A program made the position numbers and the translations under genes. Positions 3,809 to 44,844 of a stretch of DNA of 64,000 nt are shown here, in pieces. How positions within the stretch are numbered: position 1 is the first letter of the stretch; each line of letters begins with the position of its first letter. The stretch is from positions 1-64,000 of the forward strand of contig JAOAIP010000028.1 of NCBI GenBank assembly GCA_026414605.1, in the 5' to 3' direction. Source of the DNA: Bacteroidia bacterium (GTDB lineage: Bacteria > Bacteroidota > Bacteroidia > B-17B0 > Aurantibacillaceae). The notes below the pieces were generated by a model. The model was not told where the DNA came from, searched no databases, and saw only the letters and a program-made list of their open reading frames with translations.

Positions 3809-3842
3809 TGCCATCAATCTTAAACGAACAAGATAAAACGAA

Positions 3843-6290
3843 TTAAAAATTGACTATCAACCTCAAAAAGATATTTCTTCCCATATTAAATAATCCCATT
3901 CTTCCTGTGGCTGGATTGGGGCGAACGTACTTCAATCTATTCAAATGATCTTGATAAGCAATGTCAAATAAATTATTCACGCCTGCAATAATTTGAAACT
4001 CTCTTTCTTTCCAATACTTTATTGAGGTTCCGGCGGATAAATTAACCAATGTATAATCGGGCGTGTAGGTCTCGGTATTATACGCTTTGAAAAAATGATG
4101 TTGTGGAAAAACATACATTACTTCTGCTTTTAAGAAAAGGAGTTTAACAGAGGGACTTAAGTTTTTCCATTCAGTACGCAATTCATTTGTCCATCTGCTT
4201 GGTGGAAAGAAAGGTAAATACTTTGTGCTATCGGGTTGATTAAGCATATTACCTTGCAAATAAGAAAAGTTTGTTTCAAAATGCAACCAATCAAGCGGAT
4301 GAGGATGAATGTCAATGTTTATCTCTCCTCCATAAATCAACGCTTGTGATTGATTGTAAGTAAATGCCCATAAGTTTTCTCCTTCTTTGGTTATGATAGA
4401 GTCACCATTTAATAAAGAAGATAATTTTCTGTAATAAATGTAATTTGTAATATGATTTACAAAAGGCGTCAGTTCAAATAAAAAGTGTTCTTTATTGACA
4501 ATAAGACCTACATCCAATTGATGAGATATTTCGGGCTTTAATGCGGCATTGCCATATTCATAGCGAACAGTGCCCTCGTGTGCTCCATTGGATGATAATT
4601 CTGATAAATTTGGCGCACGAAATCCACGAGAAAGATTAAATTTCAAAATGGCATCTTTCCATCCATTAAAAACAAGTCCCGCCGTGCCGCTGAAATTGTT
4701 ATAGTTTTTAAAAAGTGACGAAAATTTTTCAAAACTATTAGCAGGGTCAGGATTGCCCTCTATACGCTTGCCTGTTGAATCTACGAACATTTTTTCAGTA
4801 GAAATACTTCTGTTATCCCATCTCAAGCCACCTGCAAAGGTCCAATGATGAAACGTCTTTTGATAAAAAACATACAACCCTGCATCTATCAATGAATAAT
4901 CAGGTATCAAAAGTGCTTCACCCTTGTTGATGTTTTTTTGATACATTCCTGATGTTCCAATACTCAAAAGTTGCGTAGAGTCAATGTTTTTAATGTATCT
5001 GAATTGATACGGAATACTATGCAAGTGCATACTTAATTCGCCGTGATTTTCTTCCTCCTTCTGCTGTTTATTTTTTTCTAATAATGTATAGGGACCATAT
5101 TCATCTCTGATGTTGTATTGATATCCGATGTTAGATATTATTTTGCTGTTATTTTTCAAATTAAACATTGAATAGTTTTGTAATCTATAATGTTGAATGT
5201 ATTGATAAGGAACAAAAAATTTGTATCCCTTTAAGTCATCATTGCTTACAGGCACTTGCACTAAAGTGCTATCGTTTTCTTTTTTATATGCTAAAAATCT
5301 TCCTAAACTGTCTCTGTCGCCTTCGGGCATATTTAATTGTTGTGTAAAGGCAGATGCATAAAAATTGGACATTCCCCAATGTTTGTTGATTTGAAAAGCC
5401 GCAGACAAATTACGTTCATTAAAGCCCGTGCCAAATACTTTTCCATCTATTGAATTTTGATAATTAGAAGCATCTTTTTGAGTGGCTTGTAAATACAAAC
5501 CCCAATCCGTTTTTTTATACTGTATCATTGCAGAGTTAGCAATCATTTGGTTATTGCTTTGATAGAGTCCAAGATACTTGCCGCTCCATCCTTCTGTTGA
5601 AAAGCGATAGGGGATAAAGTTAATTACTCCTGCCAATGCATCTGACCCAAACATAATACTACTTGGACCTTTAATCACTTCTGCTTTTGAAATAGCATAT
5701 TGATCAATTTCTACTCCGTGCTCATCTCCCCACTGCTGACCTTCTTGACGCAATCCGTTTACTAATACCAAACTGCGATTATATCCCAATCCACGAATAA
5801 CGGGCTTAGCAATGCCTTGCCCTGTTGTTAATGCCCATACATTATCTTTTTTACCAATGGCTTCTATGATATTATTACTTGCTTGTTGATGGACATTATC
5901 AAAAGAAATACTTTTGATGTTAATAGGATTATCTTTGTCTTGCACTGCATCAGCAGCCGTTGTTACAATAACTTCATCCATTTCACGGGCGCTTGGCAGC
6001 ATTTGAATGTTGAGTTCAACATCGGATTCATTTATGTTGATTTTTTTTGAAACGGTTTTATATCCTAATAACTTAAACTCTACAACATAATACCCTTTTG
6101 GTAAGCGATTAATTTCATAATATCCGTCTTTATTAGAAATATTGCTTTTATTGACAGAAGGAATATAAACAACCACACCTGTTAATGTTTGATTGTTTTC
6201 ATCTTTGATATACCCTTTTAATGTATATTGAGCAAATATATTTATGCTCATAAGCATAATTGTTATGATTAAATGCAGTTTTGTTCTCAT
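3843..6290 (-). CDS. TonB-dependent receptor, probable metal or metal-chelate importer
   Basis: An 815-residue receptor with a signal peptide (1-20), a carboxypeptidase-regulatory-like domain (about 22-105: GYIKDENNQTLTGVVVYIP), a plug (about 115-230) containing VIRGLGYNRSLVLVNGLRQ and KGPSSIMFGSDALAGVINF, and a 22-strand-type barrel ending LRLIVNF. The plug loop GQQWGDEHGVEID has a His-acidic cluster seen in receptors suggested to take up divalent metals. The 112-residue His-containing protein encoded upstream supports that. Zinc or copper are guesses. Its own upstream gap holds a perfect 22-bp palindrome that may control it. Confidence 0.85.
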   Translation of the reverse strand: MRTKLHLIITIMLMSINIFAQYTLKGYIKDENNQTLTGVVVYIPSVNKSNISNKDGYYEINRLPKGYYVVEFKLLGYKTVSKKININESDVELNIQMLPSAREMDEVIVTTAADAVQDKDNPINIKSISFDNVHQQASNNIIEAIGKKDNVWALTTGQGIAKPVIRGLGYNRSLVLVNGLRQEGQQWGDEHGVEIDQYAISKAEVIKGPSSIMFGSDALAGVINFIPYRFSTEGWSGKYLGLYQSNNQMIANSAMIQYKKTDWGLYLQATQKDASNYQNSIDGKVFGTGFNERNLSAAFQINKHWGMSNFYASAFTQQLNMPEGDRDSLGRFLAYKKENDSTLVQVPVSNDDLKGYKFFVPYQYIQHYRLQNYSMFNLKNNSKIISNIGYQYNIRDEYGPYTLLEKNKQQKEEENHGELSMHLHSIPYQFRYIKNIDSTQLLSIGTSGMYQKNINKGEALLIPDYSLIDAGLYVFYQKTFHHWTFAGGLRWDNRSISTEKMFVDSTGKRIEGNPDPANSFEKFSSLFKNYNNFSGTAGLVFNGWKDAILKFNLSRGFRAPNLSELSSNGAHEGTVRYEYGNAALKPEISHQLDVGLIVNKEHFLFELTPFVNHITNYIYYRKLSSLLNGDSIITKEGENLWAFTYNQSQALIYGGEINIDIHPHPLDWLHFETNFSYLQGNMLNQPDSTKYLPFFPPSRWTNELRTEWKNLSPSVKLLFLKAEVMYVFPQHHFFKAYNTETYTPDYTLVNLSAGTSIKYWKEREFQIIAGVNNLFDIAYQDHLNRLKYVRPNPATGRMGLFNMGRNIFLRLIVNF

Positions 6291-8065: not shown

Positions 8066-8092
8066 AATATCCTTAATTTTTTTATATTATTT

Positions 8093-8440
8093 GGGCGTGC
8101 CCCTCGCCCACCACAGCAAGCAATTCCTAAAGAACAAGCAAATTCAAACAAAATTTAAAACGACACAAAATGTCGTTTAAATATTTCGCACGGCTGTGGT
8201 GGGCTCGGGTCGGGCTGCTACGGGCTTCGCTATCGCTTCGGTAAATGTGCTTAAATGATAATTTAAGCACATTCGTGAGCACCTTGATATAAAAAACAGA
8301 TGGCGAACAATCCTTGTGGCATCCCTGTTCCCTTGTTATTGCTATTTTCAATCATTTGATGCTACTCTCATAATATCTATCTCCTTCATAACGGCCACAA
8401 GGCAGTACCGGCTTCGCCGCCCTCCGCATCCCTCACGCAA
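8093..8440 (+). repeat. Composite palindromic repeat, copy A
   Basis: Starts GGGCGTGCCCCTC and ends CCGCATCCCTCACGC, the same ends as copies at 34265 and 35851. CCCACCACAGC (8107-8117) pairs with GCTGTGGTGGG (8193-8203), enclosing an inner hairpin around 8156-8179 (TAAACGACA/TGTCGTTTA type). Then come a GC-rich part (8204-8241), a strong 13-bp hairpin at 8244-8273, and the GC-rich tail 8399-8440. I recognise these ends (GGGCGT..., ...ATCCCTCACGC) as a dispersed repeat family of Bacteroidota genomes. Confidence 0.8.
8244..8273. other. Strong hairpin inside repeat copy A
   Basis: AATGTGCTTAAAT and its exact complement around a GATA loop. No T tract follows, so it is not an ordinary terminator. 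It is absent from copies B and C and therefore looks like an insert specific to copy A. Confidence 0.6.
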
Positions 8441-14135: not shown

Positions 14136-16751
14136 ATGAATTTAGACAAATTTACAATCAAAGCACAAGAAGCCATTCAGCAAGCGGTGCAAATTGCTTC
14201 TGAACATCAACAACAAGCGATAGAATCTGCCCATATTCTAAAAGGTGTTCAAGAAGTGGATGAAAATGTATTACCATTTATTTTAAAGAAATTGAATGTC
14301 AATGTTTCTGTTTTTACAAAATCATTGGATAGTGTGATCGCTTCTTATCCAAAAGTAAGTGGCGGACAGCCTTATTTAGGAAGTACAGGACAAGCCGTCA
14401 TCAATAAGGCACAATCCTTGGCTAAAGAAATGAAAGACGAATACGTTTCGCTCGATCATTTGATTTTAGCCACATTCTTAGCAGGTGGCCAAGCATCTCA
14501 ACTAATGAAAGATGCAGGCATTACCGAAAAAGAATTGCGTTTAGCCATAATGGATTTACGCAAAGGCAAACCTGTAACTTCTCAAACTCAAGAAGAAACT
14601 TATCAAGCATTAAGTAAATATGCGGTAAACCTTAATGAAAAAGCACGTAGTGGAAAATTAGACCCTGTTATAGGTCGCGATGAAGAAATTCGCCGTGTAT
14701 TGCAAATATTGGCTCGTAGAACCAAAAACAACCCTGTTTTAGTAGGTGAACCTGGTGTAGGTAAAACAGCCATTGTAGAAGGTTTAGCCCATCGTATTAT
14801 CAATGGAGATGTGCCCGAAAACTTAAAGACCAAACAAATCTATGCTTTGGATATGGGGGCACTGATTGCCGGGGCTAAATACAAAGGTGAATTTGAAGAA
14901 CGTCTTAAATCTGTGATTAAAGAAGTAACCGAAAGTGAGGGAGAAATTATTCTATTCATTGACGAAATACACACTCTCGTAGGTGCGGGCGGAGGCGGAG
15001 AAGGCGCAATGGATGCCGCTAATATCTTAAAGCCCGCCTTAGCAAGAGGAGAATTGCGTGCTATTGGTGCTACTACACTCAACGAATTTCAAAAATACTT
15101 TGAAAAAGATAAAGCCCTTGAAAGACGTTTCCAAAAAGTAATGGTAGATGAGCCCACAGAAGAAGATGCTATTGCTATATTGCGTGGTATCAAAGATAGA
15201 TACGAAGCCCATCATAAAGTAAGAATCAAAGACGAAGCCATTATTGCTGCCGTAGAATTATCTACTCGTTATATCACCGATCGCTTTTTACCTGACAAAG
15301 CCATTGACCTTATTGATGAAGCCGCTGCTAAATTGAGAATGCAAATGGACTCCGTGCCTTATGAATTGGATGAAATTGAACGCGAAATAATGCAACTTGA
15401 AATTGAACGTGAAGCAATGAAGAGAGAAAACCAACAAGACAAAGTGGACTTGTTGAATAAAAAAATCTCTGAACTTCAAGAAAAACGTTCTCAAATTCGT
15501 GCAAAATGGCAATCTGAAAAAGAATTGATATTAAAAGTCCAATCTGTAAAACAAAAAATAGAAGATTTAAAAAATCAAGCAGCTATTTATGAACGTCAAG
15601 GAGAGTATGGAAAAGTAGCAGAAATTCGTTATGGAAAATTAGTGGAAGCCCAAAACGAATTAGCCGCATTAGAAAAACAATTGAATGAACTCAAAGAAAG
15701 TGGCTCTCAATTGGTAAAAGAAGAAGTAGATGCTGAAGATATTGCTGCTATTGTGAGTGCGTGGACAGGTATACCTGTAAAGAAAATGCTTCAAAGTGAA
15801 AGAGAAAAATTATTACACCTTGAAGAAGAATTACATAAACGTGTAGTAGGACAAGACGAAGCCATTCGTAGTATAGCAGATGCTGTGCGTAGAAGTAGAG
15901 CAGGTATGCAAGATCCCAAAAGACCTATTGGTTCCTTTATATTCCTTGGAACTACAGGAGTAGGTAAAACAGAATTAGCAAAGGCATTAGCAGAATTCTT
16001 GTTTAATACCGAAAATGCAATGACTCGTATTGATATGAGTGAATATCAAGAAAGACATTCTGTAAGCCGCTTGATTGGTGCACCTCCAGGATATGTAGGA
16101 TACGAAGAAGGCGGACAACTCACCGAAGCCGTTCGTAGAAAACCATATAGCGTTGTGTTACTGGATGAAATAGAAAAAGCCCACCCCGATGTGTTCAATA
16201 TCTTGCTTCAAGTTTTGGACGATGGACGACTCACTGATAACAAAGGTAGAGTGGTCAATTTCAAGAATACCATCATCATTATGACTTCTAATTTAGGATC
16301 TCATATTATTCAAGAAAATTTTGAAAACATTTCAGAAAAAAATCGTGAAGAGGTTATAGAAAGAACCAAAAACGAAGTGATGGATTTACTCAAAAAGACC
16401 ATTCGCCCCGAGTTTTTGAACAGAGTAGATGAAATCATAATGTTTGAGCCACTTACGCGCGAACAAGTCAAACAAATTATACGCTTACAAATTCAGCAAA
16501 TAGCCAAGCGTATGGAAGATCAAAACATACAAATAGAATTGACAGAATATGCTATTGAAGCATTAGCCGATATTGGCTTTGATCCTCAGTTTGGTGCAAG
16601 ACCTATAAAACGGGCTATTCAAAAGCACATACTAAATGAACTATCCAAAGCCATCTTAGCAGGCACAGTAAAGAGCAATCAAAAAATAGTAGTAGATTAT
16701 TTAGGTAATCAGTTTGTATTTATGAACCAAAGCGAAAAAGTAAGTGAATAA
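14136..16751 (+). CDS. clpB: ATP-dependent disaggregase ClpB
   Basis: 871 residues. A hexameric AAA+ chaperone that extracts polypeptides from aggregates with DnaK. Order: Clp N domain (1-145, two repeats), NBD1 with Walker [10 protein letters not shown] (about 203-211), the coiled-coil M domain (about 400-530, rich in Glu/Lys/Gln), NBD2 with GTTGVGKTE (about 605-613) and a D2 C-terminal domain with [10 protein letters not shown]. The M domain and absence of an IGF/L ClpP loop distinguish it from ClpA/C. Monocistronic with a strong terminator. A near-match promoter (TAATCTTTG, 14101-14109, one base too long) precedes it; no CIRCE element was seen. Confidence 0.98.
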
Positions 16752-16770
16752 ACCAAGATAGAACACAATC

Positions 16771-16799
16771 AAAAAGCGGTCTTAATGACCGCTTTTTTT
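16771..16799 (+). terminator. Intrinsic terminator of clpB
   Basis: AAAAAGCGGTC (16771-16781), loop TTAAT, GACCGCTTTTT (16787-16797) plus more T. Confidence 0.92.
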
Positions 16800-16827
16800 G
16801 TTTTAAACACTCTAATTATCCAGAAAC

Positions 16828-16876
16828 CTAAAATTCCACTTCAAATACCAAAATATCTATTTTTAAGATGGTATAA
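16828..16876 (+). repeat. 49-bp direct repeat, left copy
   Basis: Begins CTAAAATTCCACTTCAAATA and ends GATGGTATAA. It matches 17890-17938 at 47 of 49 positions in the same orientation. The two copies flank the TRL-like/XRE gene pair. This copy ends 17 bp before the -7 box of the lipoprotein gene and contains the short dyad AAAATA-TC-TATTTT, imperfect in the right copy. Confidence 0.9.
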
Positions 16877-16893
16877 AAAATTTATTCGGTCTG

Positions 16894-16901
16894 TAGCTTT
16901 G
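16894..16901 (+). promoter_or_regulatory. -7 promoter box of TRL-like lipoprotein gene
   Basis: TAGCTTTG, 28 bp before the ATG. The expected -33 area falls inside or at the edge of the 49-bp repeat, so a protein bound to the repeat could control this promoter. Confidence 0.6.
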
Positions 16902-16929
16902 CGGCATAAACCAATAAAAACAAAAAACT

Positions 16930-17352
16930 ATGAAAAAGACATTACTCATTGTAGGAACAAGCATTGCAGTAGCATTAACAAATGTTTCTTGTACTGCAAG
17001 ATTAGTTGATTTTACAGTTATATCAACTAAAAATGTAAACCTTGGATTCAAAAAAAGTGAAGGAAAGAAAGTAGTAGGAAAATCGATGGGGTTCTTAGGA
17101 ATTGGGGTAGATATTAAAACAGCTATTGATAAAGCACTTGAAAGTGCAGGACCTGATTACGATCTCTTGGTTGATGGAGTTCTGAAACAAGTAGCTTATC
17201 CTTTTTTCAGTGGATTTCAAGTTGAAGGTATAGCTATTAATAGTAGTATTAAAAAAGCTGAAATGGGTGAAGAAAATTTTAAGAAGTGGTGTGAACAACA
17301 CAATGTGATTTATAAATCTGATGCAGAAAGTTCTGTAACAAAAAGCAAATAA
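16930..17352 (+). CDS. TRL-like family small lipoprotein
   Basis: 140 residues. It has a signal peptide ending in a lipobox-like TNVSC (Cys21), though the -3 Leu is replaced. The mature start ARLVDFTVISTKNV and the following Gly-rich GFLGIGVDIKTAIDKALESAG resemble the TRL-like family (PF13146), small bacterial and phage lipoproteins of unknown role. The body then predicts beta strands (VDGVLKQVAYPFFSGFQVEG). The gene lies between the 49-bp repeats, converges on an XRE regulator and overlaps its ORF by 43 bp. No function is assigned. Confidence 0.75.
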   Translation: MKKTLLIVGTSIAVALTNVSCTARLVDFTVISTKNVNLGFKKSEGKKVVGKSMGFLGIGVDIKTAIDKALESAGPDYDLLVDGVLKQVAYPFFSGFQVEGIAINSSIKKAEMGEENFKKWCEQHNVIYKSDAESSVTKSK

Positions 17353-17816
17353 GTATTAAAAAAAATAAAGTCAAAAATAAAAGCCCCAATTTTTGGGGCT
17401 TTTTTATTTCTTTTTTTTTCCTTCAACAATTTTATTATCTCATCTTTTTCTTTTAGCAAACGCTCATAGAGTTCTTTGAGTTGATCAATTTCTGTGGCAT
17501 AGTAAAACTTGTATCCTTCACTATGTTGATTATTTATGATGTTATTAAATATCTTGTCTTCTGTTAAACCAATAAGATTTGTTACAGACGTATCCAATGC
17601 TTTGGCTATTTGAAATAAACGGGTAATAGAAATATCTACGTAACCGCCTTCTATTTTGGAATAATGTTTTTGGTTAATACCTAATTCATCGGCAACATTT
17701 TGTTGAGAATATCCTTTCATCATCCGTATTTTGCGAATGTTTGAAAAAATTTTTTGTATCTCTTTTGAATGCAAGCTAATCTCTTTATCTTCTCTATCTC
17801 TTGATGAATTCGTCAT
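17310..17816 (-). CDS. XRE-family HTH regulator with read-through C-terminus
   Basis: 168 residues from the ATG at 17816; the TTG further upstream lies inside the -7 box. A Cro/C1-type HTH (about residues 19-75: IRKIRMMKGYSQQNVADELG, then HYSKIEGGYVDIS) is followed by a Leu/Glu/Lys coiled coil (about 100-130). After LLKEKK the reading frame enters an A9 run (17411-17419) and continues through the terminator hairpin for about 30 unusual residues into the convergent lipoprotein gene. One added A would give a TAA at 17404-17406, just before the hairpin, and a roughly 137-residue protein with an ordinary end. The full C-terminus is therefore suspect. Confidence 0.85.
   Translation of the reverse strand: MTNSSRDREDKEISLHSKEIQKIFSNIRKIRMMKGYSQQNVADELGINQKHYSKIEGGYVDISITRLFQIAKALDTSVTNLIGLTEDKIFNNIINNQHSEGYKFYYATEIDQLKELYERLLKEKDEIIKLLKEKKRNKKAPKIGAFIFDFIFFNTYLLFVTELSASDL
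17379..17404. terminator. Bidirectional terminator in the direct-repeat cassette
   Basis: AAAAGCCCCAA and TTGGGGCTTTT (17393-17403) around a short T loop, with T tracts on both strands. It ends the lipoprotein transcript and, on the other strand, sits just after the presumed natural end of the XRE frame. Confidence 0.88.
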
Positions 17817-17828
17817 AAATTTTTTGTG

Positions 17829-17836
17829 CAAAAATA
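17829..17836 (-). promoter_or_regulatory. -7 promoter box of XRE gene
   Basis: TATTTTTG on the minus strand, 12 bp before the ATG at 17816. Confidence 0.6.
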
Positions 17837-17889
17837 GTGAGTAGAAAGGATAAAGTAAAAACTATTTTTATTTAATCTGTTTTTTAATA

Positions 17890-17938
17890 CTAAAATTCCA
17901 CTTCAAATACCAAAATATCCATTTTTAAGAGGGTATAA
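17890..17938 (+). repeat. 49-bp direct repeat, right copy
   Basis: Same sequence as 16828-16876 except for two substitutions (T to C and T to G). Here it lies about 54 bp upstream of the XRE promoter and, relative to that gene, in the opposite orientation to the left copy. Confidence 0.9.
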
Positions 17939-18062
17939 TTATTTATCTCTTAATAATATCTCTAATCGCTAAATAATTTCCTCATTTATCATCAGCAAAT
18001 AACCCTTATTAATAAATTAAATTTTCAAACACTTTGAAACTCTTGACAAGATCATAAACAAA

Positions 18063-18093
18063 AAAAAGAGCATCCTTTTGGGATGCTCTTTTT
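18063..18093. terminator. Intrinsic terminator of the TonB/winged-helix/beta-helix operon
   Basis: AAAAAGAGCATCC (18063-18075) and GGATGCTCTTTTT (18081-18093). It is A/T flanked on both sides, and lies 27 bp beyond the minus-strand gene end. Confidence 0.9.
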
Positions 18094-18119
18094 GTTATAG
18101 GTATTTATGAATGCGATAA

Positions 18120-19739
18120 TTATTCCTTAATAATGGCTGTGTTTGTAATACCTTCTTTGGATTCAAGAGTCATTACATAATATCCTTTCGGTAATGCTTC
18201 AATGTTTAATAAAGCGGCATTAGTAGAGTTGAAATTTTCATTTACTAATACTCTTCCGGTAATGTCCATAATTTTAATGTTGCGAATGGGGTTATCATTA
18301 GTATGGATATTAATAATATCTTTTGTAGGATTTGGATAAATCAAGAATCCGTTGTTGAAGGGAGTATTATTGATAGAAGTTACTAAATTGGCAAAAGCAG
18401 GGTCGTTAAAATCAGCACCAGATGCAGCAATGCCAGTGCTTACAGGTCTGTAGTCAGGATTATAAAAATCATAAGGATTAACTAAAATCCCCGATGTAGA
18501 TACTAATGAGTCATTATTATTAGCACCAAACCAAGCAGGTGCATTGAATGAACTACCACTCACTACTTCTGTAACTTTTCCTGTAGAATTGCCTGCTACG
18601 ATATTGTATTTGAATTTTAAAGTACCATTTGTAGCATTGTTTTCACAAGCAGTTCCATCAATCATTACACCTCTTGGATGATCCATAAATATAGAGTTGA
18701 ATATTTTAAGTTCAGAGTTTCTTCTAATACGTGCACCTCTTCTAAATCCAGAAGCAATAGTACTTGATGTATTTCCTCTATAAGGTCCGATGATAGTTAT
18801 ATTAGAAAATATAGCAGATGTTTTTGGAGTGGCTGTGCTACCTGTAGGGTCGTTGTCAGATTCAAAACCCTCAGATGTAGATACAGAAGGATTGTCTGCA
18901 ATGAGTGGATCTCTTACAGCAAGACAAAATTGAACATTTCCACGATAACCGTTGTCAGTATCAAAATCATCGTCTAAGTTTCTATAAGATACAAGATGTT
19001 TGCAATTTACTGTTCCGCCAAACCATTCAAAACCATCGTCATTTGCAAAAGATACTTGAACATAGTCCACTACCGTTTTTCTACCAACAGCACCAAAAGT
19101 TAATCCATTGATTTCTTTGTTTGGTTGATAGGCGTAGCCCGCAAATTCAATACGCACGTATTTTAAGATACCAGAACTATCATTGTCATTAGGAGTAGCA
19201 CCTCCGCCATATTGTGTATCAGGGCTTGGTGGAAGACCTTCAATGTAATTCGTTCCGCCTGCATCATTAGTGCTGGCATTTCCTAATATCACAACGCCTC
19301 CCCAGTCGCCCAAGTTTCTTTGTCCAGGGGCTTGATCAGAAGTAAATACAATGGGTTGATTAGGTGTGCCTTGAGCAATTATTTTAGCCCCACGAGTGAT
19401 GAATAGTCCAGCGCCTGCTACACTTTTATCGCCGCGAATAATCACACCTGGCTGAATAGTGAGTACTGCGTTGTTTTTTACAAAAATTTGACCGCTTAAT
19501 AAAATAACTTGACCTGTGCTCCAAGTGGTATTGGTTGTAATGTTACCTGTAACGGTCATAGTAGGAGCAGGATACATTTTGTTTTGAGGATCCCATTCGC
19601 ACCATTGATCGGTCCACATAGGAGTAGGTGCAGGATCAAATGCGCCACGGTAAGTAGTGGGTTGGAAAAAGGGTTGCTGAGCAACACCCCATTGTAAGCA
19701 CGCTGTAATAGCCGCTACTTGTAGAATTGTTTTTCTCAT
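18120..19739 (-). CDS. Secreted beta-helix protein with T9SS type A sorting domain
   Basis: 539 residues. A signal peptide (1-20) leads into a Gly/Asn-rich region with repeated short strands (LTIQPGVIIRG, KIIAQGTPNQPIVFTSD, GDWGGVVILGNAS, LKYVRIEFAG), characteristic of a right-handed beta-helix. Acidic clusters such as NLDDDFDTDNGY could bind calcium. The last about 75 residues (IYPNPTKDIINI, KIMDITGRVL, LPKGYYVMTL) are a type A C-terminal sorting signal for T9SS. The protein is therefore released or anchored on the cell surface. It is the last gene of an operon with a TonB receptor and a winged-helix protein, suggesting it binds or processes what the receptor imports. Confidence 0.88.
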   Translation of the reverse strand: MRKTILQVAAITACLQWGVAQQPFFQPTTYRGAFDPAPTPMWTDQWCEWDPQNKMYPAPTMTVTGNITTNTTWSTGQVILLSGQIFVKNNAVLTIQPGVIIRGDKSVAGAGLFITRGAKIIAQGTPNQPIVFTSDQAPGQRNLGDWGGVVILGNASTNDAGGTNYIEGLPPSPDTQYGGGATPNDNDSSGILKYVRIEFAGYAYQPNKEINGLTFGAVGRKTVVDYVQVSFANDDGFEWFGGTVNCKHLVSYRNLDDDFDTDNGYRGNVQFCLAVRDPLIADNPSVSTSEGFESDNDPTGSTATPKTSAIFSNITIIGPYRGNTSSTIASGFRRGARIRRNSELKIFNSIFMDHPRGVMIDGTACENNATNGTLKFKYNIVAGNSTGKVTEVVSGSSFNAPAWFGANNNDSLVSTSGILVNPYDFYNPDYRPVSTGIAASGADFNDPAFANLVTSINNTPFNNGFLIYPNPTKDIINIHTNDNPIRNIKIMDITGRVLVNENFNSTNAALLNIEALPKGYYVMTLESKEGITNTAIIKE

Positions 19740-34232: not shown

Positions 34233-34264
34233 TTTGGAGAATAATTTTTTAATGATGATTATTA

Positions 34265-34457
34265 GGGCGTGCCCCTCACACATCACAGCCATTTCAACCG
34301 TCATTGCGAATGAAGTGAAGCAATCTCAAAAGAACGACAACTCACTCAACAAGAGATTGCTTCGGGCTTCGCCCTCGCAATGACGTTCTCAACCGAAGGC
34401 GAGGCAGTGCCGGCGGTTCGCTTCGCTCACCGCCGCCCTCCGCATCCCTCACGCGAA
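34265..34457 (+). repeat. Composite palindromic repeat, copy B
   Basis: Same ends as copy A (GGGCGTGCCCCTC ... CCGCATCCCTCACGCGAA). The middle is replaced by a different inverted repeat: CATTGCGAATGAAGTGAAGC (from 34302) with AATCTC and its rough complement GAGATTGCTTCGGGC near 34352, ending CTCGCAATGACG. This second element is itself a known dispersed type in Bacteroidota (CATTGCGA...GCAATCTC). The GC-rich tail 34393-34457 is shared with copies A and C. Confidence 0.8.
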
Positions 34458-34460
34458 TTT

Positions 34461-34605
34461 TAGTCAAAAGTTGAAAGTAATTATCCTTAAAAAATTTAAA
34501 GCACCCAATATTTATCAAAAACATTATTCTTTATCACTTTCCACTTTCTACTTTTAACTTTCAACTTTCAACTTTCTACTAATAAAAGGAGGTGAGTGAA
34601 ATAAC
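34461..34605 (+). repeat. AAAGT-type inverted repeat pair, copy B
   Basis: TAGTCAAAAGTTGAAAGT (34461-34478) and CACTTTCCACTTTCTACTTT with further units (34535-34580), followed by CTACTAATAAAAGGAGGTGAG. Same order as in copies A and C. Confidence 0.7.
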
Positions 34606-35812: not shown

Positions 35813-35850
35813 TGTTTTGAATTTTAATATAATTATTTTAATTTTTATTT

Positions 35851-36168
35851 GGGCGTGCCCCTCACACACCACAGCATTTTCTACCTTTGTAAAATAATCT
35901 CATTACGATTGTTTCAAAACGACAAAAAATGTCGTTTAAAAATTTCAATCGGCTGTGTTGTGTTCGGGTCGGGCTGCTACGGGCTTCGCTATCGCTTCGG
36001 CAATCCTCGCCTTCGCCATTGCGAACGCAGTGAAGCAATCTCAAACGAAACATATCAAAGCCAAAAAGATTGCTTCGGGCTTCACCTTTTCAATGACGCT
36101 ACCAAACGAAGGCGAGGCAGTGCTGCGGCTCGCTTCGCTCGCCGCACCCTCCGCATCCCTCACGCGAA
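35851..36168 (+). repeat. Composite palindromic repeat, copy C
   Basis: GGGCGTGCCCCTC start and CCGCATCCCTCACGCGAA end as in A and B. The first half (35851-36000) matches copy A, including the AAAACGACA/TGTCGTTTA hairpin (35916-35940) and the same GC-rich run. The second half (36014-36102) carries the CATTGCGAA...AAGCAATCTC inverted element found in copy B. Copy C thus combines the parts of A and B. Confidence 0.8.
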
Positions 36169-36170
36169 AG

Positions 36171-36300
36171 TTAGTTAAAAGTTGAAAGTAAAAAGTAGAA
36201 AGGTTTCTTACTGCCAAAGTGATAATTTCCCCAATCTCATAAAAATTATCTCTACTTTAAACTTTTCACTTTCAACTTTCTACTAATAAAAGGGGGTGAT
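36171..36300 (+). repeat. AAAGT-type inverted repeat pair, copy C
   Basis: TTAGTTAAAAGTTGAAAGTA through AAAGTAGAAAGG (36171-36202) and CTTTAAACTTTTCACTTTCA through ACTTTCTACTAATAAAAGGGGG (36255-36297). Confidence 0.7.
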
Positions 36301-36345
36301 TTAAAAAGAAATACCACCCTTAAATAAAATCAATAGATTAGGCGA

Positions 36346-39300
36346 CTATCTAAATACCGTTAGTGGTCCTGTATAATCTTTTGGATAAAGTTTAGAATTC
36401 AATCTAATTATGTAATAGTAAGTACCTACTGGCACATCTTTTCCTTTATATTTTCCATCCCACGGTGTAGAGTATCCTTTGGAATAAAATAGTTGCTCTC
36501 CCCATCTATTATACACCTCTACTTCACAGTCAGGGAATTGTTGTATATTGTCAATTACCCAATAATCATTTTTACCATCACCATTAGGGCTAAAACCATT
36601 AGGAATATCTATTTCAGGATAAACATATACCGTTACGGTATCCCAATTAGTACAACCATTGGCATCTGTAACTATAACTGTATAAGTTGTGGTAAGAGTG
36701 GTAGATGTTGTCGGATTGGGGATGTTAGGGCTATTTAATCCCGTAGCAGGAATCCATACATAATTAGTGGCAGTAGATGCAGTAGGATTACCACCAATAA
36801 CTGTTGATGCTCCCGTAGGCATTGTTACATAAGGTCCTGCATCTACATTAGGAAGTGGATATCCTACCAATACTACCATTTCGGTATCTATACATGTTCC
36901 ATTGGTTACAGTTAATACAAAAGTATTACTACCCACACTAACATTAGCAACAGCAGTAGATGTGTTAGCAATAGTAGTAGAAGGTAATTGTGTCCATTGA
37001 TAGCTTGTAGCATTTATAGAAGTACTACCATCAAGGGTATAAGTATAAGCGCCGCACTGTGCAGTGCCAGAGTTAGCAGATGCTAAAAGTGTAAGTGTTG
37101 ATGATACTACAAAACTGGTATCGTGAGTACAGCCCTTGCTATCTATTATACTTAAGGAATAAGTACCTATACCAATGTTGGATATAGAACCTGTATTATT
37201 AGTATATGAGTTCGGTCCATTCCAGTTGTAAGTATAGGTAGGATTACCTCCTGTAACAGAGATAGTAATAGACCCATCAAAAAGTGCACTACAACTTGGG
37301 TCTGTAATAGAAGCATTAGCCACAATAGGTTGTGGTTGATTAATATTGATAGTTACATTTGTTGGACAATTATTAGCATCTTGAACAATTACTGTATAAT
37401 TTCCAGTTCCTATATTTACTAAAGGATTTGTAGTACTACCAGATGGTTGGAAAGTATAACTATAAGGCAAAGTTCCACCACTTGTTACGATAGCAATAGA
37501 ACCATCTGTATCTCCGTAGCATTTGGGGTTTTGAACAATAGGAATGCTATTTAATATTCCAATTGGTGATGAAACACTTCCACTCAACACGGTTAAACAA
37601 CCTGCATTATCTGTAACGGTCGCAGTAATTAATCCGCTGCATAATCCAGATAAATTACTAAAATTACCATTTACAACTGTACCATCGTACCATGTGATAG
37701 TATAAGGCGAAACACCCGCTGTTACACTAACTGATGCAGCCCCATCGCAAGAAGTATTGCAGGCAGCATCTATGATAGAAAGAGTAGCAAGAGGTCCATT
37801 TTGATTAGAAACAACAAATACAGAAGAGGTAGTACAACCTGCAGCATCAGAAATGTTTAAGGTATAAGTTCCTGGTCCAATATTCGTAAGAGTAGCAGAG
37901 GATATATTTCCTGGAAGCCAAGTATATGTAAAAGGTGGAGTTCCTCCATTAATGTTAGCAATTATACTACCATTATTCGTTCCGCATGAAGGTTGATACA
38001 CTATTGGAACTATCTGAATGGTATTCGTTGCCACTATATTAACAGATTCAGTATTAATACAATTCATAGAATCCTTTACTTGAACATAATATGTCCCTGA
38101 ACACAATCCATTTTCAATATTAGATATATTTCCAGAATTTATCCATAAATATGAATAAGGTGGGGTGCCTCCACTTGCTGTTATTGTTGCGGACCCAACA
38201 CAATCACCAAAACAAGCAGGATTAGTTACAGTGATAGCAGTAATTAGTGAAGAATTATTACTTAATGGAATAAATTCATTTTGAATGCAACCATTAGCGT
38301 CTGTAATTGTAATCATATACAAGCCAGCACATAAATTAGCGGATCCCATACCTGAGTTTCCATTACTCCATTGAACAGTATAACCAGGCGTACCCCCTGA
38401 TAAATTTAAATTAATGGATCCGTCGCAATTACCACAAGATGGATTATTTGAATTATAGATAGTTGTTATAGAAGATGGTGAAGTAATAGTAACTGAGAAA
38501 TTGTCAAAACAGCCATTGTTGTCGGTGATGGTACAAGTATAATTTCCATTGCATAGTCCTATAGCAGTAGAATTACTTTGTCCTAATGGATCAGACCAAT
38601 GAAATACATAAGGCGGCAATCCTCCTGCTATTCCTACTAAAGAAGCAGTACCATTGCAGTCATAAAAACAATTATTATTTGTAACAAATGTACTTGCAGT
38701 GATAGAAATGCCTCCTGTCAATGTATAAGTCAAGGGATATTGACAGCCATTATTATCAAATACAGAAACCGAATACACTCCTGGACACAATGATGTTACT
38801 GAGTTAGAAGAGGATCCTGTATTCCATGTATAAGAATATGGAGCAGTGCCACCAGTAGGGGATAAACTAATACTTCCGTCACAAATTCCATTACACTGTG
38901 GATTTTGTATGTTAGCATTCGCATTAATTGGTGAGGGTTCAGAGATAGTAACTGATTGAAAAAACTTACAGTTATTTGCATCAGTAACCTGAACGGTATA
39001 AACTCCAGCACAAAGATTAGAGATGGTAGCAGATGCTACAGGTGGGCTAACCCACGTATAGGTATAAGGCGCAGTTCCTCCCGTAATAGGGGGAGAAGCA
39101 ATAGCCATCCCATCACAATAACTGTTACAAGAAACATTAGTAAAAGTAATCGTTATACCACTTGGACCATTTGAATTACTTAAAGGCAATTGGAACGTTT
39201 GACTACAATTGTTAGCATCAGATACAGTTACGGTGTACACTCCTGAACACAGATTTGTAGCCATACTGCCTGTAGATACAGATGGCTGCCAAGTATAAGA

Positions 39301-42300
39301 ATAGGGGCCAGTACCACCACTTGTTGCAAGAGTGATAGACCCATTGCATACACTACAATCTGATGGGCTCATTGACGGATTTACAGTAAGAGTTACAGGA
39401 GCATTTAAAGTTACCTGTCCACTATCTCTACATCCTTTGTTGTCTTGAATATAAACGGTGTATGTGCCTGCACATAAACCAGTTGCTGTTGGAGTACTTT
39501 GTGGTGGAGAAGAAGTCCATGTGAAATTAATAGGTGCAGTTGCATTTAATGGATTACTACTGGCTATTCCATTGCAATTGCTGCAAGATGTAGGGTTAGT
39601 AAAACTGATATTTGCTAAAATTTTTGGAGGATTAATTAAACTTGCTACTTGTTGTCCCTGACAATTTTTACTATCTTTAATCAGCAGTGTATAATTACCT
39701 GCACAAAGATTGCTGGCTGTAGATGAATTTCCTCCTGATGGTATCCAAGTGTAAGTATATCCACCGTTACCACCCACTGCAGTAGAAGTAATTATTCCAT
39801 TACATAGATTGAAGCACGTTGGATTTGTTGGAGTTACACTTACGCTAATAGGTGCTGGCTGGTTAATAGTAAATGTTTTAATGGATTGGCAACCATTAGC
39901 GTCAGTTACAATAGAAGAATAGGTACCAGCACAAAGAGTGTTTACCACAGAAGAAGTCAATACTGTACCACTCCACGAATAAGAATAAGGAGATACCCCT
40001 CCATTAACGGTTACAGTAGCACTTCCGTTACAATCTCCGTTACAATTGACACTTGGAGTATTTACTACTGTACTGGTTAATACAGGAGGTTCCGTAATAG
40101 TATATGTTAATGTAACATTACAACTTCCATTATCTTGTATATTTACAGTATAAACATTCGGACATAATCCAACAATAGAGGGAAGAGTAGATCCAGGGAA
40201 ACTTCCAATAGGCGTCCAAGAATAAGAATAAGGGGCAGTTCCACCTGAAACAACTAATCCAATTGTACCATTACAAGCACTATTACACAAAACATTTTGT
40301 GTGTTAGCAGTAACATTCAAGGTAGAAGGAGGATTGATGATAAAGGTTTGTGTGTAAGAACAGTTGTTGGCATCTAATATATCAAGAGTGTATGTTCCAG
40401 GGCATAATGAATTGACAAAAGAAGCATTAGACCCCGTAGACCAAGTGTAACTATACGCAGGAGTACCACCAGCAGGGGATACACTAATAGCACCAGAGCA
40501 ATTGGAATTACAAATGGGCTGTGTAACTGTTGGGTTCAAAGAAAATTGTGCTGGTTGGCTAATACTAATTACTGAACTTGTTGTACAACTTCCTGCATCA
40601 CCTATTGTAACAACATATACACCAGAAGAAAGACCTGATGCTACACTGTTTGTAGATACAGAAGGGCTCCAAGTATAAGATAAAGGAGGATTAGTAGATG
40701 TAGCAACTACTGTGGCAGATCCGTTTGAACCATTAAAGCAACTTACGGATTGAGTGGATATAGAAGTAATTGTAGGTCCTCCAGGACCATTCAGTGCAAC
40801 TACTGAAGTAGTAGAACATCCATTTGCATCCTTAACAATAATCGAGTATACCCCCGATGAAAGTGTATTTACTGTAAATGAAGAAGAGGTGGATCCTGTT
40901 GGTCCAGGACTTATAGTATAGTTATAATTTGGAATACCACCACTTAAAGTAGCACTTATTATGCCGTTATTGCTAACACAACTTGTAGGATCTGTATAAC
41001 TTATATTTACAGTGGTAGCTGGTGGTTGAGAAACTGTAAAAGTTGCTGTTTTTGTACAATTATTAGCATCCTTAATATCTACAGTATAATTTCCAGCGCA
41101 CAAACCTGTTACTGTACCTGTACCATCACCGGTGAGTCCTGAGGGTGTCCATGAATAATTTAAACTACCTGTTCCACCCGTTGCACTTATGCTAATTTTT
41201 CCATTGCAAGATCCAAAACAGTTATTATTTATAACATTAGAAGAAGTAATGGTAATAACAGGGGGATCAATAAATCTAACAGAATCAGCATTTTGACAAC
41301 CCTGATTATCTGTAACAGTAATCGTATAACCACCAGCACACAATCCATTGATATTTTGGTTATTAGAAATTGTTCCCGTAGAAGATGTCCAAGTATATGT
41401 ATAGGGGCTTACGCCACCGGACACGTTGACATTTGCAGCACCATTACAAGATCCATTACAAGTAAGGGTATTTCCACTTGTAGTTAAGGTTAAAAAGATG
41501 GCTTGTGGGATATTTACAGTGGCAGTTGCTGTACAGCCATTTATATCTTTAACAATAGCAGTATAGTTACCAATACATAAACCTGATGCAACAGAATTAC
41601 TACCACCACTTGGTAGCCAAGTGTATGAATAAGCAGGAGTACCACCCGATGGAGAAACTGTAGCAGCACCTATACATGTAGAACTACAGCTTGCTTGTAT
41701 GCCTGTAATATTTGCTTGCAATTGGGAGGGTTGGTTAATACTAATATTTTGAGAGGCAACACAACCTTTGCTATCTGTTACAGTTACTACATAATTTCCA
41801 GGGCATAAACCTGTAACCGCAGAGTTGGTAGTAACAGGAGTGGTATTCCATTGATATACATAACCCGGATTACCTCCTGTTGCTGTAGCGGTTGCAGAAC
41901 CATTACAAGCCCCAAAACACAATACATTTTGAACATTAGTAGTTATTGTAATAGCAGGAGGAGCTATCACAGTGAAAGTTTGGACTTTGGTACAATTTTT
42001 TGAATCAGTAACAGTCAATGTGTAGGTTCCTGGGCATAATCCAGTTATACTACTTGTTGTTGCACCAGTATTCCAATTATAGGAATAGGGAGAGTTTCCA
42101 CCTGTTACAGTGGTAGTAATAGACCCATTACAATTGTAACTACAAGAAGTGGAATTGGTGGTTGCAGTTACAGTAATATCTGGGGGAGAAGTGATATTTA
42201 CAGTTTTTGTTCCTACACATCCATTTCCATCTATAACATTGAGTGTGTAAATTCCTGCACATTGATTGGTTAATACAGCGGAAGTAAATGTAGTCCCACT

Positions 42301-44844
42301 TGGGGGAACAGACCATACATAAGTATAAGAGGGCGTACCTCCACTGGCGCTTCCTGAAACAGATCCATCGCATCCACCAAAACAAGATACGCTGGTGGAT
42401 ACGGCAGTTACAGTAAGAGCATTCGGTTGTGTAATAGTAATAACAGTACTTTGGATGCAGCTGTTAGCGTCTTTTATTTGTAATGTATAAGTTCCTGCGC
42501 ATAATGATGAATAAGGTGGATTAGTAGTAAGAGTTGTTGTTGGACCTGTTAGAGTATAAGTATAAGCACCCGTACCACCCGAAGGAGTAGCATTAATTAC
42601 TCCATTACAAGCATTATTACAGGTAACATTTGTTTTAGTTACATTGGGTGTTATAGAAGATGGTTGTGTAATAGTATAGTTAATCGTTACACTACAACTA
42701 TTAGCGTCTTTTACAAGAACACTATAATTGCCTGCACATAAGGAAGATATTGGATTAATAGTTTGAGAACCAGGCGACCAAGTAAAAGTATAAGGAGGAG
42801 TACCGCCTCCAGGTGTTAAAGTTGCGCTACCATTGCATAATCCATTACAAGTTACATTTGTAACATTAACAGTTCCAGAGAGCACAGGGGGTTGTGTAAT
42901 GGTAAATGTTTGTATCTGGGTACAATTGTTTGCGTCTTTTACATTAATTGTATAATTTCCTGCACATAGATTATTGATAGTAGCAGTTGGATTCGCTACG
43001 CCAGTAATGCTACCAGGCGAGAGAGTATAATTAAATGCAGGAGAACCACCATTTACAGTAAAGTTAACTTTGCCATTACAAGATCCGTTACAAAGTGCGG
43101 CAGTAGTAGATGGTACGATAGTAATTGACCCTGGTTGGGTGATGGTAAATGATTGGGTTTTCGTACAATTATGATTATCTTTAATAGTAACAGTACAATT
43201 GCCAGCACAAAGTCCAGAAGCAGAATTTGTAGTAGATCCAGAGCAGGACCATGTATAAGAATAAGGAGAAACGCCACCACTTACACTCACAGAAGCGGTA
43301 GCATCACATAAGCTGAAACAACTGACATTGGTTTGAGAAGGCACTACAGTGATAGAAGTAGGTTGTGTAATATTAGTAATATAAGTGGCTGTACATCCAT
43401 TAGCATCTGTAATAGTGGCCGTATACCCCCCTGGACAAAGATTGTTTATAGCCGTTGTATTAGTAGCTCCTGTGCTCCAATTCACAGTATATCCAGGTGT
43501 TCCACCTGATGGGGAAACTTGGGCTGATCCATTGCAAAATCCAAAGCAAGAGATATTGTTAGATGAACCATTAGGCAACAAAGGGGGGGGTTGTGATAAG
43601 GTAATTGTTGTAGTTTTTGTACATCCATTAGCATCTTTTAAGACAAAGGTGTGGGTACCCGCACATAAATTAGTGTATGTTGTATTTCCCTGAGGAATAG
43701 TGTAAGTATTAATACCATCTACAGTTATAGTATATCCTGTTGGTGGATAGGAGCCTTGAAGAGCATTGAGCGTTATACTACCATTACATTGACCATTGCA
43801 TAAAGGAGGATTATCAGATGTTTTAACTAAAATTAAAGCACCAGGTTGGTTGACATAACCAAGTGCAGATGTTAAGAAGTTATTATTATTATCATAAATG
43901 TCTACTTGATATGGGGAGCATTGACAAAGATTGGTAATTGTGTAAGAACCATTCCCTGCCACTGATGTAAGGGTAGGGGTAGAGGAACATCCAGATGGCC
44001 ATTGTAATTGAAAGGGTGTTGAAGTGGAGCAACCTGTACTACTTATAGTTAATACAAGAGATCCATCACAAGTACCAAAACAACTTGTTGAATATCCAGT
44101 TAATGTAGCGGATGCTATACAAGAAGTAGGAGACCAGTCAGGTGTATAAATTTTAGAATTTATATTGTTTTTAATTAATGTTTTTACAAATGCACTATCT
44201 TCTTTTGTAACAAAATGAGATTGTGATATATTAAATGATATGCTTTTATTTGTTATTTTATCTATTTTTAATACAGATGATTGGGCTTCAATGAGAGAAC
44301 TAATTGAAGTTAATTTTTGTGTTTCTAAATGTCCATTTATGATATTTAATAAAGCATTGTCAAGGTTTAAACTATCAGTAAATAAATTTGATATTTGAAA
44401 ATGTCCATTTTTTAGTACTAAAGCATTGTTTAATTTAGCATAAAAAAAGACATAAGATAGTGCCTTTTTTGTGTTTGTTACAATAATTGGTTTGGAAGTG
44501 TTAATAGAGCAATTAGGATGAATAATAATATCCCCATCAATTAAAAGAGAATGATTTTTAGTATCAATAAATACTTGAAAAAAAGAATTTTTAACTTCTA
44601 AACCACTTATTTTAATGTCTGAATGAAATTCAATTAACATATTAGATTTAGAGGATGCTTCATCAATAATCGCTTTGGTATTAGCATCTGGAAGGTGTCC
44701 GCAAGGGGTTCCTCCGCTTGTTAATGACCAATGTTGAGGATCGTTCCATTTGCCTGTTCCTCCAATCCAATACAAGGTCTTTTGGGCATTTAGTATAAAA
44801 AATAGTAGTAAAAAATTCAGAATATAAAGATATTTTTTTGACAT
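36346..44844 (-). CDS. Giant SprB-repeat surface adhesin with T9SS type B sorting domain
   Basis: 2832 residues. Signal peptide (1-20), an N-terminal head (about 21-240), then about 30 SprB-type repeats of 70-90 residues (about 245-2590). Each repeat opens with a Cys motif like SCFGxCDGSATVSxSGGxxPY and closes with GLCAGTYTVTVTDANGC, so paired Cys likely make a disulfide per repeat. After two PKD-like domains (about 2590-2740) comes a gliding-associated CHU_C/type B sorting domain (IPNGFSPNGDGKNDYWVIDN, VEVYNRWGEQLFYSKGY, VPVGTYYYIIRL). This is the architecture of the gliding adhesin SprB and kin, a filament moved or displayed on the surface. It is paired with the downstream porP/sprF gene. 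Confidence 0.95.
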   Translation of the reverse strand: MSKKYLYILNFLLLFFILNAQKTLYWIGGTGKWNDPQHWSLTSGGTPCGHLPDANTKAIIDEASSKSNMLIEFHSDIKISGLEVKNSFFQVFIDTKNHSLLIDGDIIIHPNCSINTSKPIIVTNTKKALSYVFFYAKLNNALVLKNGHFQISNLFTDSLNLDNALLNIINGHLETQKLTSISSLIEAQSSVLKIDKITNKSISFNISQSHFVTKEDSAFVKTLIKNNINSKIYTPDWSPTSCIASATLTGYSTSCFGTCDGSLVLTISSTGCSTSTPFQLQWPSGCSSTPTLTSVAGNGSYTITNLCQCSPYQVDIYDNNNNFLTSALGYVNQPGALILVKTSDNPPLCNGQCNGSITLNALQGSYPPTGYTITVDGINTYTIPQGNTTYTNLCAGTHTFVLKDANGCTKTTTITLSQPPPLLPNGSSNNISCFGFCNGSAQVSPSGGTPGYTVNWSTGATNTTAINNLCPGGYTATITDANGCTATYITNITQPTSITVVPSQTNVSCFSLCDATASVSVSGGVSPYSYTWSCSGSTTNSASGLCAGNCTVTIKDNHNCTKTQSFTITQPGSITIVPSTTAALCNGSCNGKVNFTVNGGSPAFNYTLSPGSITGVANPTATINNLCAGNYTINVKDANNCTQIQTFTITQPPVLSGTVNVTNVTCNGLCNGSATLTPGGGTPPYTFTWSPGSQTINPISSLCAGNYSVLVKDANSCSVTINYTITQPSSITPNVTKTNVTCNNACNGVINATPSGGTGAYTYTLTGPTTTLTTNPPYSSLCAGTYTLQIKDANSCIQSTVITITQPNALTVTAVSTSVSCFGGCDGSVSGSASGGTPSYTYVWSVPPSGTTFTSAVLTNQCAGIYTLNVIDGNGCVGTKTVNITSPPDITVTATTNSTSCSYNCNGSITTTVTGGNSPYSYNWNTGATTSSITGLCPGTYTLTVTDSKNCTKVQTFTVIAPPAITITTNVQNVLCFGACNGSATATATGGNPGYVYQWNTTPVTTNSAVTGLCPGNYVVTVTDSKGCVASQNISINQPSQLQANITGIQASCSSTCIGAATVSPSGGTPAYSYTWLPSGGSNSVASGLCIGNYTAIVKDINGCTATATVNIPQAIFLTLTTSGNTLTCNGSCNGAANVNVSGGVSPYTYTWTSSTGTISNNQNINGLCAGGYTITVTDNQGCQNADSVRFIDPPVITITSSNVINNNCFGSCNGKISISATGGTGSLNYSWTPSGLTGDGTGTVTGLCAGNYTVDIKDANNCTKTATFTVSQPPATTVNISYTDPTSCVSNNGIISATLSGGIPNYNYTISPGPTGSTSSSFTVNTLSSGVYSIIVKDANGCSTTSVVALNGPGGPTITSISTQSVSCFNGSNGSATVVATSTNPPLSYTWSPSVSTNSVASGLSSGVYVVTIGDAGSCTTSSVISISQPAQFSLNPTVTQPICNSNCSGAISVSPAGGTPAYSYTWSTGSNASFVNSLCPGTYTLDILDANNCSYTQTFIINPPSTLNVTANTQNVLCNSACNGTIGLVVSGGTAPYSYSWTPIGSFPGSTLPSIVGLCPNVYTVNIQDNGSCNVTLTYTITEPPVLTSTVVNTPSVNCNGDCNGSATVTVNGGVSPYSYSWSGTVLTSSVVNTLCAGTYSSIVTDANGCQSIKTFTINQPAPISVSVTPTNPTCFNLCNGIITSTAVGGNGGYTYTWIPSGGNSSTASNLCAGNYTLLIKDSKNCQGQQVASLINPPKILANISFTNPTSCSNCNGIASSNPLNATAPINFTWTSSPPQSTPTATGLCAGTYTVYIQDNKGCRDSGQVTLNAPVTLTVNPSMSPSDCSVCNGSITLATSGGTGPYSYTWQPSVSTGSMATNLCSGVYTVTVSDANNCSQTFQLPLSNSNGPSGITITFTNVSCNSYCDGMAIASPPITGGTAPYTYTWVSPPVASATISNLCAGVYTVQVTDANNCKFFQSVTISEPSPINANANIQNPQCNGICDGSISLSPTGGTAPYSYTWNTGSSSNSVTSLCPGVYSVSVFDNNGCQYPLTYTLTGGISITASTFVTNNNCFYDCNGTASLVGIAGGLPPYVFHWSDPLGQSNSTAIGLCNGNYTCTITDNNGCFDNFSVTITSPSSITTIYNSNNPSCGNCDGSINLNLSGGTPGYTVQWSNGNSGMGSANLCAGLYMITITDANGCIQNEFIPLSNNSSLITAITVTNPACFGDCVGSATITASGGTPPYSYLWINSGNISNIENGLCSGTYYVQVKDSMNCINTESVNIVATNTIQIVPIVYQPSCGTNNGSIIANINGGTPPFTYTWLPGNISSATLTNIGPGTYTLNISDAAGCTTSSVFVVSNQNGPLATLSIIDAACNTSCDGAASVSVTAGVSPYTITWYDGTVVNGNFSNLSGLCSGLITATVTDNAGCLTVLSGSVSSPIGILNSIPIVQNPKCYGDTDGSIAIVTSGGTLPYSYTFQPSGSTTNPLVNIGTGNYTVIVQDANNCPTNVTININQPQPIVANASITDPSCSALFDGSITISVTGGNPTYTYNWNGPNSYTNNTGSISNIGIGTYSLSIIDSKGCTHDTSFVVSSTLTLLASANSGTAQCGAYTYTLDGSTSINATSYQWTQLPSTTIANTSTAVANVSVGSNTFVLTVTNGTCIDTEMVVLVGYPLPNVDAGPYVTMPTGASTVIGGNPTASTATNYVWIPATGLNSPNIPNPTTSTTLTTTYTVIVTDANGCTNWDTVTVYVYPEIDIPNGFSPNGDGKNDYWVIDNIQQFPDCEVEVYNRWGEQLFYSKGYSTPWDGKYKGKDVPVGTYYYIIRLNSKLYPKDYTGPLTVFR

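Follow-up and report, generated by a model that had tools for sequence, protein, structure and literature searches.

A 1,013-bp segment carrying a lipoprotein gene and an XRE-type regulator gene has probably been inserted between clpB and a T9SS-cargo gene, with a long (49-bp) duplication of the target and without a transposase. We place the probability of this reading at about 0.6. The segment lies in the window, by which we mean the whole stretch of 64,000 nucleotides analysed here, from a member of the Bacteroidia (Aurantibacillaceae). In the mechanism we propose, a piece of DNA containing both genes, each with a candidate promoter, would have entered where clpB and the T9SS-cargo gene converge, between their 3' ends, and the 49 bases of the landing site would have been copied to both sides of it. 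The act was likely an illegitimate or homology-aided capture of foreign DNA, either through a widely staggered break followed by fill-in, or through a single crossover with a circle that carried the 49 bp.

Direct repeats and the segment between them

The features of the locus are as follows (positions in the window, strand, description).

16771..16797, +, terminator-like hairpin of clpB, left outer flank
16828..16876, +, left 49-bp direct repeat, putative target-site copy from the repeat comparison
16877..17889, no strand, putative inserted segment of 1,013 bp, GC 0.295 (window 0.329)
16894..16901, +, candidate Bacteroidota -7 box TAGCTTTG of the lipoprotein gene, a consensus match only, 17 bp right of the left repeat
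16930..17352, +, lipoprotein gene, 140 aa, unnamed family
17310..17816, -, XRE-type regulator gene, 168 aa, HTH_3, convergent orientation, 43 bp shared with the 3' end of the lipoprotein gene
17379..17403, both strands, terminator-like hairpin after the lipoprotein gene, within the XRE frame
17829..17836, -, candidate Bacteroidota -7 box TATTTTTG of the XRE gene, a consensus match only, 53 bp from the right repeat
17890..17938, +, right 49-bp direct repeat, 47/49 identical to the left
18063..18093, -, terminator-like hairpin of the T9SS-cargo gene, right outer flank
18120-19739, -, T9SS-cargo gene, right flank, identified by its Por_Secre_tail domain match

The two repeats stand on the same strand with their starts 1062 bp apart, and the coordinates, orientation and identity given for them in the first-pass annotation were all reproduced. 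Their edges are abrupt, and beyond them the flanking sequences bear no obvious likeness to each other. When the sequences on either side of the lipoprotein gene were aligned locally, the score was 44, compared to a maximum of 15 for shuffled sequences. The presence of near-identical and sharply bounded direct repeats exactly around two genes favours an insertion. A search of the 2.48-Mb genome for further copies of the 49-mer, a check proposed in the same annotation, found two copies, that is, the flanking pair only. The 86 other genomes of the family yielded only three weak matches of 23-36 nt; two fall within long reading frames, none has a relative of the XRE gene nearby, and we treat them as chance. 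The exact 24-mer core of the repeat was absent from the viral contigs searched, and the repeat list of the window contained no terminal inverted repeats around the insert.

Direct repeats are in themselves no rarity in this genome, as interspersed and tandem repeats were also present in the stretches that we sampled (464 kb including the window and another 378 kb, about 0.84 Mb). The window itself holds an interspersed intergenic repeat family with GGGCGTGCCCCTC, CGTCATTGCGAA and CTTTCAACTTTCTACTAATAAAAG blocks at three places (8068-8244, 34240-34601 and 35826-36305), and many degenerate internal repeats at 37219-43636 with spacings near 228, 477 and 1,600 bp, a pattern that a very long, repetitive gene for a surface protein would be expected to show.

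Only the lipoprotein and the HTH_3 protein are encoded between the repeats, along with both candidate -7 boxes. As had been claimed earlier, no transposase or integrase gene is present there, nor is any recombinase gene. No restriction-modification (RM) genes were recognised in the insert, and no Rfam element came near its own gathering score at 16700-18200. The flanks had been described as clpB and a T9SS operon; the near end of the supposed operon is a single T9SS-cargo gene.

The regulator matches HTH_3 with E = 1e-12, and its resemblance to RM control proteins is weak and runs through the generic HTH. The last ~30 codons of the gene (17310-17403) are antisense to the terminator and 3' end of the lipoprotein gene, and have no counterpart in the best relatives. 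Alignment to these relatives stops at about residue 139, which corresponds to position ~17400. The arrangement suggests that the earlier stop codon of the XRE gene may be gone, so that its frame now runs antisense into the tail of the lipoprotein gene. Given such read-through, the pairing of the two genes need not be old.

Congeners and relatives of the two genes

No ortholog of either gene was found in the three available congeners (G001, G002 and G003), whose genomes are 78-89% complete; by sequence comparison, both genes are likely to be truly absent from each of them. In G003, clpB is followed by hemA, and in G001 and G002 the T9SS-cargo gene adjoins pth. The adjacency of clpB and the T9SS-cargo gene thus occurs in no congener, and the junction is particular to the source genome among those available, so that the congeners may instead have lost the genes, or the locus may have been rearranged in a more complex way.

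With both flanks rearranged relative to the congeners, a local event that involved no foreign insertion may be considered, in which 49 bp were copied while the clpB/T9SS-cargo junction formed, or in which a promoter region was duplicated. Duplicated upstream regions do occur elsewhere in the genome. One such pair, similar to that in the window and older in appearance, is an 83-bp direct repeat (L173, G000:C23, 107-189 and 677-755; 87% identical) that contains promoter-like sequence and a start codon before a lipoprotein gene and before the next T9SS-cargo gene. However, local duplication alone would not account for two genes absent from the congeners lying exactly between the copies, and the right copy is not followed by a gene or a promoter-like box on the + strand. 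We therefore consider a purely local origin unlikely.

The first-pass annotation had described the enclosed genes as a 'TRL-like' lipoprotein gene and a convergent XRE gene. The gene pair is as described, but the label found no backing: neither Pfam nor NCBIfam offers a named family for the lipoprotein, and the Pfam TRL profile (PF13146) matched none of 18 proteins (the window protein and 17 aligned relatives) at E values up to 5. The name thus stays unproven. The TRL family is known from the tRNA-associated locus of Helicobacter pylori (PMC3120642); it shares with the present case a small, patchily present gene between resident genes, which was the source of the label, and differs in that the window's only tRNA is 13 kb off. 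A fold search with a model of the lipoprotein (mean pLDDT 68) returned nothing significant, with a best E value of about 0.1.

A scan of GTDB species genomes identified 57 relatives of the lipoprotein, the best of them 59% identical, and the family has a conserved motif, RLxDFTVIS. The long form of the gene is patchily distributed: of 394 other genomes drawn evenly from the phylum, one carries it. This patchiness, together with the lack of orthologs of both genes in the congeners, favours insertion. So does the fact that the window's XRE gene is a neighbour at none of the 57 related loci, where XRE matches occurred only ~3 kb away, at four short-form loci. Rfam DUF805/DUF805b RNA motifs lie directly upstream of five of the relatives, and are not reported at 16700-18200 of the window:

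L104:3914-3981
L106:3918-3982
L118:3913-3977
L110:3950-3987
L107:3941-3972

Parallel cases

The clearest parallel in the sampled stretches of the same genome was seen on contig C58 (L166), where 99 bp from the 3' end of an MMPL gene (PF03176) are duplicated at 98% identity, 2.4 kb apart:

L166:2827-2925 (G000:C58:42827-42925), proximal 99-bp repeat
L166:5258-5356 (G000:C58:45258-45356), distal 99-bp repeat

These repeats enclose three genes, two lipoprotein-like and one DUF4221, and the repeated 99 bp end right at the MMPL stop codon. The end of the MMPL gene is uninterrupted in all three congeners. Compared with G001 and G003, the distal copy keeps its match up to and including the stop codon, whereas the proximal copy diverges at the stop and is extended by nine new codons. 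This gives the event a polarity: DNA was inserted, and 99 bp of the target were duplicated. Since the gene downstream of this insert has no match in the congeners, the polarity applies to the gene-end side of the site only.

Two relatives of the window lipoprotein, both from other organisms, are also placed between direct repeats. One, in Gillisia (L118), is enclosed together with its DUF805 RNA leader by exact 27-bp copies of the 3' end of ahcY (3842-3868 and 4482-4508), and the other, at L113, lies between two ~90-bp copies of the 5' region of the neighbouring lipoprotein gene, start codon included. These loci and the C58 event lend further weight to an insertion in the window, and by analogy we infer that the window pair arose in the same way as the C58 pair.

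A flanking-repeat score of at least 25 was obtained for 2 of 22 long-form loci, with the window excluded, and for 0 of 293 control genes (p = 0.005); the control above 25 that was left out of this count is the L113 lipoprotein gene itself. We regard the enrichment as no more than suggestive, since the first examples had already been seen when the test was made. Against recurrence stands the finding that the remaining 20 of the 22 long-form loci have no such flanking repeats. That long-form lipoprotein genes are recurrent passengers of transposase-free insertion with target duplications of 27-90 bp in Bacteroidota is therefore a tentative proposal, which we regard as possible rather than probable. 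If true, it would mean that a general process of gene capture acts on genes other than RM genes in this phylum. Insertion with long target duplication has been reported mainly for RM genes in Helicobacter. The occurrence of its signature at least twice in the sampled parts of one Bacteroidota genome, with an ordinary cargo of lipoprotein and regulator genes, suggests a broader, transposase-free gain of small modules. With its interrupted gene end and three uninterrupted congeners, C58 offers a clean place for the study of the ends.

Alternative roles of the repeats and comparison with known systems

Two readings of the repeats had been offered in the first-pass annotation: operators of the XRE protein at both promoters, or the ends of a removable or newly inserted module. 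Under the first, the regulator would control both the XRE promoter and the lipoprotein promoter. An XRE gene and a sequence common to two upstream regions are what this arrangement shares with XRE-type autoregulated operator pairs; the regulator has a normal HTH_3 domain, both repeats occupy upstream positions relative to the two genes, and a -33 element of the lipoprotein promoter would sit at the end of the left one. However, the repeats are direct, and thus stand in opposite orientation at convergent promoters, where equivalent operators should be inverted unless palindromic. No palindrome is evident, as the best dyad in the 49-mer was equalled by 103 of 200 shuffles. The distances to the candidate -7 boxes are unequal (17 and 53 bp), and a sharply bounded stretch of 49 bp at 96% identity is longer than usual for an XRE site. 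The absence of the XRE gene from the related lipoprotein loci argues against a conserved partnership, and the best relatives of the regulator have no comparable repeat nearby. On these features of the sequence, operator function appears quite unlikely.

Of the second reading, the 'newly inserted' half is the better supported. The other half would make the repeats attachment sites of a cassette that is still movable, with a recombinase (an integrase or XerCD) acting in trans. A two-gene module between direct repeats does resemble att- or dif-flanked cassettes. Nevertheless, this genome holds no further copies of the site and the family no clear ones, and the repeats around the other examples are unrelated in sequence. 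Likeness to dif was 15/28 when judged by the E. coli consensus, which may not be that of Bacteroidota, and was matched by 138 of 300 shuffles. The lipoprotein has no match in phages, plasmids or viral contigs. Attachment sites are thus not indicated, and we hold a movable cassette to be very improbable.

Also rejected were a XerCD dif module, on the score against the E. coli consensus just given; a phage or plasmid origin, as the lipoprotein has no match there and the XRE protein matches only the generic HTH in plasmids; and insertion of an IS or composite transposon, as no transposase lies between the repeats and 49 bp is too long. Direct repeats of target DNA around an insert are common to IS elements and the present case, but IS target duplications measure 1-14 bp (PMC11708052), and here the repeats are of 49 bp, with neither a transposase nor terminal inverted repeats.

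The preferred reading, insertion with a long target duplication, has its closest precedent in the RM genes of H. pylori (Nobusato et al., 2000), and in the accounts cited here the association with RM genes is frequent, not strictly defining (PMC1643837, PMC3031569, PMC4978471). The H. pylori insertions, like the one proposed here, place a module between long direct repeats of the landing site, without a transposase and with a repeat length that varies from case to case. In the window, repeats of tens of base pairs lie exactly around the insert and no transposase or integrase is encoded, but the host belongs to the Bacteroidota, the cargo is a lipoprotein gene plus an XRE gene, and an RM association is lacking. 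A single uninterrupted site in relatives, a further trait of such insertions, is seen at C58; at the window, the insert genes are absent from the congeners but the flanks are not adjacent there. The feature in the window is most likely a further example of this known but little-studied, transposase-free movement of genes.
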